Of a stretch of 64,000 nucleotides of DNA, positions 59,806 through 63,685 are shown piece after piece. The notes beneath the pieces were generated by a model that saw only the letters and a program-made list of their open reading frames with translations, did not search any database and was not told the DNA's origin. The first letter of the stretch is position 1, and every line of letters begins with the position of its first letter. Made by a program: the position numbers and the translations under genes. The stretch is taken from the NCBI RefSeq assembly GCF_029490015.1, contig NZ_CP120468.1, positions 1,364,001 to 1,428,000 of the forward strand, given 5' to 3'. Source of the stretch: Halobaculum limi. Lineage in GTDB: Archaea > Halobacteriota > Halobacteria > Halobacteriales > Haloferacaceae.

Positions 59806-60741
59806 ATGGATCTCACCGGAGCCACCGTCCTCGTGACGGGCGGGGGCGGCCTCATCGGTTCCCACCTCGCGGGGCACCTCCAAGACCACTACGACGCGAC
59901 GGTTCGCGTCGTCGACGACTTCTCGAAGGGCGACCGCGATCGGGTCCCCGACGGCGTCGACGTCGTGACTGCAGACCTCACCGACGAGGCGGCGACTGCC
60001 GATGCGGTCACCGCGGACCTCGACGCTGTCTTCCACCTCGCGGCGTACACGGACACGAACTTCGACGACGACCGGACGCTGTTCGAGGAGAACACCGAGA
60101 TGACGTACAACGTCCTCGAAGCGATGGAAGACGCCGGCGTCACGAATCTCGCCTTTACCTCTTCCTCGACCGTCTACGGCGAGGCCCCTCGCCCGACGCC
60201 GGAGGACTACGCGCCGCTGGAACCGATCAGCATCTACGGCTCCTCGAAACTCGCGGACGAAGCGATCGTCTCGACGTACGCGAAGAGTTACGGCTTCACC
60301 GCGTGGGTGTACCGCTTCGCCAACATCGTCGGGCCGTACCAGCGCGGCAACGTCGTCCCCGACTTCATCCAGAAACTGCAGGCCGACCCCGAGGAACTGG
60401 AGATACTCGGCGACGGCCGCCAGGAGAAGTCGTACCTCCACGTCACCGACTGCGTCGACGCGATGTGTCACGTCGTCGAACACGGCGACCGCGACCTCAA
60501 CACCTACAATTTGGGATCACGGACGACCACCTCGGTGAACCGCATCGCCGACATCGTCAGCGAAGAGATGGGACTGGACCCCGAGTACGCCTACACCGGC
60601 GGCGACCGTGGGTGGACCGGCGACGTGCCGAAGATGCGCCTCTCCGTCGAGAAACTCTCGGCGCTCGGGTGGGAACCGCCCACATCCAGCGACGACGCCG
60701 TCCGCCGCGCGACGCGCGACCTCCTCGACGAACTGGCCTGA
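59806..60741 (+). CDS. NAD-dependent nucleotide-sugar epimerase/dehydratase
   Basis: 311 residues, extended SDR. VLVTGGGGLIGSHLAGHLQD (GxxGxxG), VFHLAAYTDTNFDDDRT, AFTSSSTVYGEAPRPTPEDY, SIYGSSKLADEAIVSTYAK (YxxxK), YRFANIVGPYQRGNVVPDF. UDP-glucose 4-epimerase-like; likely to supply sugars for S-layer or archaellin glycosylation (inference). Confidence 0.9.
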   Translation: MDLTGATVLVTGGGGLIGSHLAGHLQDHYDATVRVVDDFSKGDRDRVPDGVDVVTADLTDEAATADAVTADLDAVFHLAAYTDTNFDDDRTLFEENTEMTYNVLEAMEDAGVTNLAFTSSSTVYGEAPRPTPEDYAPLEPISIYGSSKLADEAIVSTYAKSYGFTAWVYRFANIVGPYQRGNVVPDFIQKLQADPEELEILGDGRQEKSYLHVTDCVDAMCHVVEHGDRDLNTYNLGSRTTTSVNRIADIVSEEMGLDPEYAYTGGDRGWTGDVPKMRLSVEKLSALGWEPPTSSDDAVRRATRDLLDELA

Positions 60742-60884
60742 CACACCACCGGTCGCCGACTCGTGTTCTCCACCGTCGAACTACCAGTAGCCACTGCTGT
60801 TCGGTTCGGCCTACGGCACAATCCGCACGACTAGATATGTCGGCTGCCTGCCTGCTCAGAAGTTTTTACTCGGTAGTGAAAAAC

Positions 60885-60891
60885 TATTTAT
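60885..60891 (+). promoter_or_regulatory. TATA box of the 32-residue microprotein
   Basis: tatttat in a 50-base AT-rich stretch, centred about 27 bases before ATG 60915. An A-run (gaaaaac) directly upstream fits a BRE-like element. Strong promoter with no other downstream gene in this direction until 62840. Confidence 0.65.
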
Positions 60892-60914
60892 CCTCACACG
60901 TCATATGATTGAGT

Positions 60915-61013
60915 ATGACCTCATTCCGTCAAGCAACTTACGTCGAAGTCTCGGACGCGATTCACGCCGTCAACCAGCGCGCCGTTCCGATGGGCCGCCC
61001 TGCGGGCGAGTAA
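60915..61013 (+). CDS. 32-residue microprotein
   Basis: ATG 60915 to TAA 61013. Reads MTSFRQATYVEVSDAIHAVN then QRAVPMGRPAGE: short helical middle, no Cys, no membrane span. Not acidic overall. The strongest evidence is the promoter at exactly the leaderless distance; the codons have high third-position GC. An alternative ATG at 60905 is in another frame and too close to the TATA box. Function unknown. Confidence 0.6.
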   Translation: MTSFRQATYVEVSDAIHAVNQRAVPMGRPAGE

Positions 61014-61070
61014 CGTCGCCGCCCCGCTCCGATCACTCCGAGTTTCACTTCTCAGGGCGTTTTCACACCG

Positions 61071-61427
61071 TCACTCGTCTGCAGGAACGACGACCATCAT
61101 CGTCGCTGCAGCGTCGGTATCTCCGGTCGCGAGCGACGCCGTCACCTCGTACTCGCCGGCCGGTGGCGACTCCCACGTCCCCTCGTAGGTGGCGGACTCG
61201 CCCGCCGCGAGCGTCTCCGACCCGAGCGCCATCGTGAACATCCGCCCGTCGCTCCAGCGCCAGACTACCTCGCCGTGCGCTGCGTCGCGGGCGACGAACT
61301 CCGCTCGTTGGCCGTCGCTGAACGAGAGGTCGACCGCGTCGGTGCCGGCGTTCTCGACCGTCAGCGACAGTGAGAGTCCGTCGTCGGTCGGTGCGACTGT
61401 GAGCGTCGCGTCGAGTGAACTGGACAT
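61071..61427 (-). CDS. BsuPI-like (intracellular proteinase inhibitor) domain protein
   Basis: 118 residues from ATG 61427. All-beta: SLDATLTVAPTDDGLSLSLT, VENAGTDAVDLSFSDGQRAE, VVWRWSDGRMFTMALGSETL, AAGESATYEGTWESPPAGEY. This is the BsuPI/intracellular-proteinase-inhibitor-type Ig domain (motif WRWSxGxxFT). No signal peptide. It lies immediately downstream of the subtilisin gene in the same direction (71 bases), suggesting control of the protease inside the cell (inference). Confidence 0.78.
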   Translation of the reverse strand: MSSSLDATLTVAPTDDGLSLSLTVENAGTDAVDLSFSDGQRAEFVARDAAHGEVVWRWSDGRMFTMALGSETLAAGESATYEGTWESPPAGEYEVTASLATGDTDAAATMMVVVPADE

Positions 61428-61498
61428 ACCGGTGTGACCGGGCCACACGCGAAGAAAGTGGGGGCCGGTCGGCGAAGTGTTCGACGTGTGAGTCGCCG

Positions 61499-62638
61499 TC
61501 AGTTGTCGCTGGAGTCGTACCCGAGCGCCGCCGCGGTGTCGAGGAGGCCCGCGCCCTGTTCGTTCGACGCGAGGCCGAGATCCTCGGCGGTCGACGTCAG
61601 CCGCGACCGTGCCTCGGCGTTCGTGTAGCCGTTGGCCATCAACTGGCCGGCGGCACCAGCGACGTGGGGCGTCGCCATCGACGTCCCCGAAAAGGTGTCG
61701 TAGCCGCCAGGGACCGTCGAGTAGATGCTCGATCCGGGCGCGATGATCTCGACTTCCGGTCCCGTCGAGGAGAACCCGGACAGCGAGTCGTCGCTGGCGG
61801 ACGAGGAGACGGCCATACACTCGGGGTACGCGGCCGGGTAGCCCACGCAGTCGGTACACGGCCCGGAGTTGCCAGCGGCCGCGACGAGGAGCACGCCCTT
61901 GTTCTGGGCGTAGCTACAGGCGTCTTTCAGCGCCGCCGACCCCGAGGACGCACCGAGGCTCATCGACCCGACGTCCCAGCCCTGGTCGGCGACGTACTCG
62001 ACGCCGGCGGCGATGTCGGAGAACGACCCCGACCCGCGCTTGTCGAGCACTTTCACCGCGTGCAGCGTCGCCTCCGTCGAGACGCCGCGCACGCCCTGAC
62101 TGTTGTCGTCGGCTCCGGCGATGCCGGCACAGTGGGTGCCGTGGTCGTTGTCGTCGTCCCAGTCTTCGGCGTACCGGCCGCGGGATTTGACGAACGCCGT
62201 GCCCGATCCGAGGTTCGCCTGCAGGTCCGGGTGGTCGGAGTCGATGCCGGTGTCGAGGATGGCGACGTCCGCGCCCGCGCCGGTCGACCCGTTCGCGTGG
62301 GCCACCTCCGAGTCGGTCCGGTCGATGCCCCACGTCAGTTGCTGCGCGAGGGCGTGCATCTCGCCGTTCTCCTCGACGTAGCGCACGTCCGGACGCTGCT
62401 GGAGGCCCTGGATGGCGTTCTCGTTGACCCGCATCGTGAGGGCGTCGAAGTTGAACTCCCGCACCACGTCGCTGGCGGCCGACAGCGCCGCCCGACGACC
62501 GCTCTCGTCGCTGTAGCCGACGTTGACCTCGATAGTCCCCGGCGACCCGGACGCCATTCCCGCGAGGCCGGTCGTCGCGACCGCCGCGCCGGTCGCCTTC
62601 AGTACGTCACGCCGTGTCTTCCCGTCACGATATACCAT
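61499..62638 (-). CDS. Tat-exported subtilisin-family serine protease (halolysin-like)
   Basis: 379 residues from ATG 62638. Tat signal KTRRDVLKATGAAVATTGLA, an inhibitor-type pro-region (about 40-100: RAALSAASDVVREFNFDALT), then the S8 domain with Asp in VAILDTGIDSDHPDL, His in DHGTHCAGIAG, oxyanion Asn in VAAAGNSGPC, Ser in GTSMATPHVAGAA. It lacks the C-terminal extension of classical halolysins. Extracellular proteolysis. Upstream DNA is AT-rich with a minus-strand TATA (attttat) at about -32. Confidence 0.95.
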   Translation of the reverse strand: MVYRDGKTRRDVLKATGAAVATTGLAGMASGSPGTIEVNVGYSDESGRRAALSAASDVVREFNFDALTMRVNENAIQGLQQRPDVRYVEENGEMHALAQQLTWGIDRTDSEVAHANGSTGAGADVAILDTGIDSDHPDLQANLGSGTAFVKSRGRYAEDWDDDNDHGTHCAGIAGADDNSQGVRGVSTEATLHAVKVLDKRGSGSFSDIAAGVEYVADQGWDVGSMSLGASSGSAALKDACSYAQNKGVLLVAAAGNSGPCTDCVGYPAAYPECMAVSSSASDDSLSGFSSTGPEVEIIAPGSSIYSTVPGGYDTFSGTSMATPHVAGAAGQLMANGYTNAEARSRLTSTAEDLGLASNEQGAGLLDTAAALGYDSSDN

Positions 62639-62809
62639 GACGAACGTGAAAATATGACACACCAATAAAATTCTATCGAAGATAGATTCAAATAACTACA
62701 TATTCAGTTGATTCAACGGCCTCCAGACAGATGTCACGGTGGAGTTTCCGAGGCTCTGCGTGCCACTCGGTGCGCGGTGTCTGGTGGCGACCCACCCGGA
62801 GTGGACACG

Positions 62810-62817
62810 GCTTTACC
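62810..62817 (+). promoter_or_regulatory. TATA box of the DUF2797-like gene
   Basis: gctttacc, centred 27 bases before GTG 62840. Chooses the GTG over longer in-frame upstream starts. Confidence 0.5.
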
Positions 62818-62839
62818 CACCGAGCGGCTACCCCTCGTT

Positions 62840-63685
62840 GTGCAGGTCGTGGGCTACGAAACGCCGGCGGGCGCGTTGTTCGTCAGCGACGCCGACCCCG
62901 CGACCGATGCCCCGCCCGGGACGCCAACCGGCGACGTCGACCGAATCGCCCTCGACCCCGGAACCGACCTCTCGTGGCGCCTCGGCGAGCGACGCTGTGC
63001 CGGGACGGTCCACGAGGGCGGCCACGTCGTCTGCGACGCCGACGACGCGCCCTACTGCGACGACCACCGCTCGACGTGGGTGTGTGCGCGGTGTACTGGG
63101 ACGTGTCTGAAAGACGAGATGGACTGCTTCGACGACCACGCCATCTACCTCGCGGCGTTCGCGCCGGACACGTTCAAGGTGGGCGTCACCAGAGAGTGGC
63201 GATTGGAGACGCGCCTGCGCGAACAGGGCGCCGACCGCGCGGTCCACCTCCGCACCGTCGACGACGGCCGCATCGCCCGTGAGATCGAGTCGGGGATCGC
63301 CGCGAACGGCCTCGACCGACACAGCGACGAGCCCACCGCGGTCGCCCGTCCCGACACCGATGGAATCCCCGACCGCGTACGGGTGCCGACGAAGGTCGCG
63401 GGCCTCGCAGCCACCGTCGACGAAGCCGCGTGGGACCGCCTCCTCGACGGCGTCGACTACGAGGCCTCCTTCTCGTTCGACTACGACCTCGACCTCAGCG
63501 AACGCCCGGTGGCCGAGACGCTCGCCTCGGGGACCGTCGTCGGGACGAAAGGGCGGATCCTCACGGTGGAGAACGCGGGGACGACGTACGCGGTCGATAT
63601 GCGTGACCTCGTCGGCTACGAACTCCTCGACGGCGACGACGGCGAGGGGCGCGACCTCCAGTCGAGTCTCGGTGCGTTCGGCTGA
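62840..63685 (+). CDS. DUF2797-like zinc-binding protein, 281 aa
   Basis: GTG start. N-domain beta-rich (VVGYETPAGALFVSDADPAT), then Cys-rich ERRCAGTVHEGGHVVCDADD, YCDDHRSTWVCARCTGTCLK, DEMDCFDDHAIYLAAFAPDT, and an FKVGVTREWRLETRLREQGA (GIY-YIG-like strand). Recalled as family DUF2797; nucleic-acid role possible. Function unknown. Confidence 0.78.
   Translation: MQVVGYETPAGALFVSDADPATDAPPGTPTGDVDRIALDPGTDLSWRLGERRCAGTVHEGGHVVCDADDAPYCDDHRSTWVCARCTGTCLKDEMDCFDDHAIYLAAFAPDTFKVGVTREWRLETRLREQGADRAVHLRTVDDGRIAREIESGIAANGLDRHSDEPTAVARPDTDGIPDRVRVPTKVAGLAATVDEAAWDRLLDGVDYEASFSFDYDLDLSERPVAETLASGTVVGTKGRILTVENAGTTYAVDMRDLVGYELLDGDDGEGRDLQSSLGAFG

Follow-up and report, generated by a model that had tools for sequence, protein, structure and literature searches.

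A frame of only 32 codons behind what was described as a strong leaderless promoter lies near the end of a 64,000-nucleotide stretch of Halobaculum limi DNA (contig NZ_CP120468.1, positions 1,364,001 to 1,428,000; hereafter the window), and raises the question of whether it is a small protein gene, a small RNA or neither. The frame (60915–61013, forward strand) starts with ATG, ends with TAA and translates as MTSFRQATYVEVSDAIHAVNQRAVPMGRPAGE, confirming the length given in the original prediction. Its TATA box, TATTTAT, occupies 60885–60891 on the same strand; the distance of 27 bases claimed for it holds for the centre of the box, the first T lying 30 bases from the A of the ATG. Such spacing is typical of haloarchaeal promoters that give leaderless transcripts, and the mRNA start is predicted at about 60915. 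The AT-rich patch described there was likewise recovered, the 60 bp preceding the ATG having a GC content of 35% versus 66.8% for the window, and only 0.26% of all 60-bp windows counted across the stretch are equally AT-rich. In a census of both strands that accepted 13 TATA-like hexamers, such a hexamer was present at −33 to −22 in 10 of the 793 ATGs of the window, including this one. Eight of the ten open frames of at least 130 codons, the exceptions being the present frame and one of 50 codons. An alternative ATG at 60905, which opens 110 codons in a different frame, was rejected, as it is confined to its own genome and is not conserved.

Homologues of the peptide within Halobaculum

Searching 60 relatives with the peptide returned nine full-length places in eight genomes of the same genus, the source genome included (E up to 0.011). 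A profile built from these nine sequences found the same nine places among 170 genomes of the family, with E values of 1.2e-17 or better and no further match below 1e-4, and it gave no full-length match beyond Halobaculum among 392 genomes of the order, a sample that drew only part of Halobaculum. Family-search matches with E above 0.002 and order-search matches at 0.0026–0.0028 covered part of the profile only and were dropped as chance; candidate distant homologues in genomes G083 and G010 were partial profile matches to pieces of other frames. Plasmids and phages that were searched gave no match to the peptide. At 20 loci from other genera, taken from 24 genomes with a match, the position following the epimerase gene held no profile match above noise; two of these loci carry an unrelated frame of 21–22 codons with a TATA-like site. 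Conservation among haloarchaea, proposed originally as a check on the gene, was thus found inside the genus, with nothing full-length elsewhere in the family and order samples, and the gene looks genus-restricted.

Homologues are present in 8 of 11 Halobaculum genomes, in loci that include those of H. litoreum, H. gomorrense and H. saliterrae, and all nine copies encode 32–33 amino acids. Their identity to the window peptide is 38–59%, and evolution within the genus is fast, peptide identity falling to 38% against 89–91% for the neighbouring epimerase. All eight orthologues keep the start, the length of 32–33 codons and the promoter. The ninth copy, G004b, is a paralogue in H. saliterrae (G004) that has a different context and does not carry the promoter element. 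It lies at L058:8026-8121 on the reverse strand, adjoining what by eye appears to be a sugar-ABC-transporter cluster.

A gene-specific promoter

Comparison of the eight orthologues resolved the promoter into several elements. An upstream element at 60859–60879 (+), reading GAAGTTTTTACTCGGTAGTGA in the window and GAACTATTTACTCGGTCGYGR in most orthologues, is kept in all eight when a one-base indel is permitted, and is a possible regulator site. It is followed by AAAA, a BRE-like element at −35 to −32 (60880–60883, +) that is invariant in the eight, by TATTT at −30 in seven orthologues and −29 in the other, and by TA at −11/−10 (60904–60905, +), the haloarchaeal −10 WW position, where T is found in 8/8 and A in 7/8. 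Upstream of its ATG, every orthologue carries GAACTATTTACTCGGT[AC]G[TC]G(A/G)AAAACTATTT or a sequence differing little from it. These elements agree with those proposed for Haloferax, namely TTWT (TATA), CGAAA (BRE) and WW (−10), in a study reporting that 72% of protein-coding transcripts of Haloferax volcanii are leaderless (PMC4983044). The spacing of BRE, TATA and −10 places the predicted transcript start at the ATG, and on these grounds the transcript is very likely leaderless.

The long promoter pattern occurs as a single site per genome in 8 of the 170 family genomes, all of them Halobaculum and always at the microprotein gene. A version allowing up to three mismatches added no site among the 170, although a one-base insertion in G004 keeps that genome from matching it, and the pattern was not found in viral contigs. 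Conservation of the upstream element suggests that the gene is regulated, and a promoter element found nowhere else in the 170 genomes would make this gene a well-isolated system in which to test regulated leaderless expression. That the core motif TTTACTCGGTNGYG marks a broader regulon was considered and rejected, the two extra sites, in G001 and G007, having neither the TATA half nor a peptide. These two occurrences lie at a similar-looking place, around position 1500 of loci L114 and L115.

Evidence for protein-level selection

Across the nine sequences the mean pS was 0.48 and the mean pN 0.28, and pS exceeded pN in 35 of 36 pairs, the remaining pair being tied at two decimals. We then compared the alignment with neutral simulations run on the gene's own tree at matched divergence. 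For the eight orthologues, the observed BLOSUM score was reached in 0/1000 simulations and the observed identity in 5/1000, while all eight rows were free of stops in just 197/1000; with nine sequences, neither score was reached in any of 1000. The pattern named in the original prediction as evidence against a gene, substitution without amino acid conservation, was therefore not what we observed.

Conservation among the eight orthologues is confined to two blocks: the promoter, from −56 to −26, and the coding frame as far as the stop codon. Ungapped identity is 0.60–0.71 in the promoter core (−50 to −21) and 0.56–0.79 in the frame, compared with roughly 0.3–0.4 upstream of the promoter and 0.24–0.4 beyond the stop (0.24–0.34 from the 110th base). 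Extension of the protein N-terminally through the upstream block was rejected, because it meets an in-frame stop in the H. limi genome (G000), and a one-base displacement of the block in G004a and G006 breaks the frame. Taken with the Halobaculum homologues, these coding tests and the end of conservation at the stop codon indicate that the frame is almost certainly a real protein-coding gene. A frame of 32 codons is smaller than those for which gene finders are usually trusted, yet comparison within a genus can in this way make the case that it encodes a protein.

Predicted product and relation to known families

The AlphaFold2 model, which draws on four sequences, consists of a single helix (residues 2–23) and an unstructured tail, with a mean pLDDT of 72.8 and a pTM of 0.35; confidence in the model is moderate, and a single helix by itself says little about function. 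The helical hydrophobic moment is moderate (0.29–0.43) and the net charge lies between −1 and +1. The C-terminal tail is conserved, resembling SLGRPAGDD (S/P-L/M-G-R-P-A-G-D/E), and six positions, M1, R5, Y9, R22, G27 and P29, are invariant in the nine sequences. A conserved unstructured tail beside an amphipathic helix points to partner binding. From these features, a soluble partner-binding microprotein is the most likely assignment; that binding would be achieved by the helix-plus-tail arrangement as modelled we regard as about an even chance.

No match was found to Pfam or NCBIfam with three peptides at E values up to 10, and PDB sequence matches were no better than E 0.29. In PHROGs, queried with two peptides, the best match was phrog_26597 (E 0.032), obtained with one homologue, residues 3–24 aligning with residues 3–24 of 92. 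This likeness is weak and N-terminal only, and since phrog_26597 matched neither the window peptide nor anything in any Halobaculum genome, it was judged to be chance. In size class, predicted leaderless expression and haloarchaeal host, the peptide resembles the µ-proteins (<70 amino acids) of Haloferax volcanii, for which about 400 microproteins are reported (PMC12186497), and its nine copies of 32–33 residues under purifying selection fit that description. It differs from them in having no sequence relative outside Halobaculum among the 170 family and 392 order genomes. Like the C(P)XCG zinc-finger µ-proteins, such as HVO_0758, it is small and haloarchaeal; unlike them it has no cysteine pairs and thus not the two C(P)XCG motifs, eight of the nine homologues containing no cysteine and the paralogue G004b one. 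Among publications on Halobaculum small proteins and transcriptomes, judged by title, none describes the microprotein. The peptide is thus a new orphan family of an already known µ-protein kind, and offers a compact, deletable target for studying microprotein function in haloarchaea.

Neighbourhood, presence and probable loss

The local gene order is SDR, epimerase, peptide, convergent BsuPI and subtilase, and DUF2797. As originally described, the frame faces a subtilisin/inhibitor pair, a subtilase (PF00082) and a BsuPI inhibitor (PF12690) encoded downstream on the opposite strand. The tie to this pair that had been suggested did not hold up. The peptide occurs with both genes in G000, G003, G004, G006 and G008, with BsuPI but no subtilase in G002 and G009, and with neither in G001; where it is absent, both genes are present in G007 and neither in G005. 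Presence of the three genes is uncoupled, so the tie is not supported; the gene forms a monocistronic unit of its own, separate from the convergent pair.

G005 and G007 have clean syntenic sites with no peptide. In G005, about 120 nt separate the epimerase match from the first DUF2797 match, and in G007 only 29 nt separate the epimerase match from the BsuPI match, with no peptide in either interval. In G010, neither the peptide nor the epimerase gave a match. With no copy found in 3 of the 11 Halobaculum genomes, the gene is dispensable. G005 is the sister of the carrier G004 (support 100/100), and G000 is placed outside the remaining Halobaculum genomes. The ancestor of the genus therefore probably carried the gene, with a loss in G005; the placement of G007 is weakly supported (85.5/62).

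Exchange of the promoter-peptide cassette

Variants of the peptide go together with variants of the promoter, and the history of this cassette conflicts with that of its flanks in one pair of genomes, G006 and G009, picked after the sequences had been seen. The two are 98.6% identical in the TFE-like gene, 96.9% in SDR, 97.6% in the epimerase and 95.3% in DUF2797, and are sisters in most flanking genes. Trm56 disagrees, each being closest to G007, of which only a Trm56 fragment is available. In contrast to the flanks, their peptide genes are only about 63% identical, that of G006 being nearest to G004 (87.9%) and that of G009 nearest to G001 (84.8%), and a promoter-plus-frame tree constraining G006 and G009 together was rejected (p-AU 6e-10). 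By this conflict between trees, the cassette has been exchanged at least once, and the exchange may have taken in more of the variable interval.

Weighing of alternative explanations

The explanation that we consider likely is a genuine, independent microprotein gene of the genus Halobaculum, whose peptide would act as a regulator or adaptor. The gene-specific promoter, comprising the upstream element, AAAA, TATA and the −10 TA, would set the transcript start at or near the ATG; the leaderless transcript would be translated from its first codon; the frame is kept by purifying selection on the protein; and the soluble peptide would dock on a protein partner by its amphipathic helix (about residues 2–23) and flexible tail. 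The main alternative left by the original prediction, "a real small gene or a small RNA", is a regulatory RNA in which the short frame is incidental or of minor dual function. Haloferax offers precedents, with 395 novel intergenic sRNA candidates (PMC4983044) and most ribosome-associated sRNAs reported to be without evidence of coding (PMC12482152). However, the RNA from the ATG to 61070 folded no better than shuffles (z +0.92), Rfam gave no match in 60000–63000, and the structure that RNAalifold drew from eight sequences was weak (−7.69 kcal/mol) and lay in part in promoter columns that would not be transcribed; its 23 pairs gave a covariation term of −0.5, and at 5 of them both partners changed in one or more sequences. 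Amino acid conservation past neutral expectation, constant length, conservation bounded by the stop, promoter spacing and the lack of an RNA-structure signal together favour the small gene, and the RNA half of the prediction is quite improbable. That the frame is spurious or the remnant of a longer gene would suit its shortness, fast evolution and genus restriction, but the start, length and promoter common to the eight orthologues and the rejection of neutrality leave this very little probability, the coding test refuting it unless the alignment is artefactual. We give as little weight to a leader peptide that attenuates a downstream gene. Such an arrangement is approached in G001, where DUF2797 is the next recognised gene, co-directional and with its first match about 175 nt past the last codon of the peptide, but at seven of the eight orthologous loci the nearest recognised gene after the peptide is BsuPI, which runs in the opposite direction, and the peptide has no run of amino-acid-sensing codons.

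Somewhat less improbable than these, though still unlikely, is a polymorphic peptide swapped between species together with its promoter, for example an intercellular signal, a self-recognition peptide or an inhibitor. The cassette would then be a recombining unit of a genus-restricted, allele-swapped system, lost by some species and encoding a signal or recognition peptide, specific to a species or strain type, with a hypothetical partner, a picture to which we likewise assign a low probability. The near-identical flanks of G006 and G009 around cassettes that group elsewhere speak for it, as does the variable presence of the gene. Against it, visual inspection shows no hydrophobic secretion signal, no gene for immunity or a receptor is linked, purifying selection is observed, and a single clear exchange could come from routine homologous recombination across a stretch whose gene content varies.

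Two features of the neighbouring genes were also noted. The epimerase (59806–60741, +) has a second copy in the same genome with 88% identity (G000:C1:1604337-1605266), which is not followed by a peptide. The subtilase (61071–62638, reverse strand), after which comes the BsuPI gene on the same strand, has an N-terminal RRDVLKATG that by eye resembles a Tat signal.
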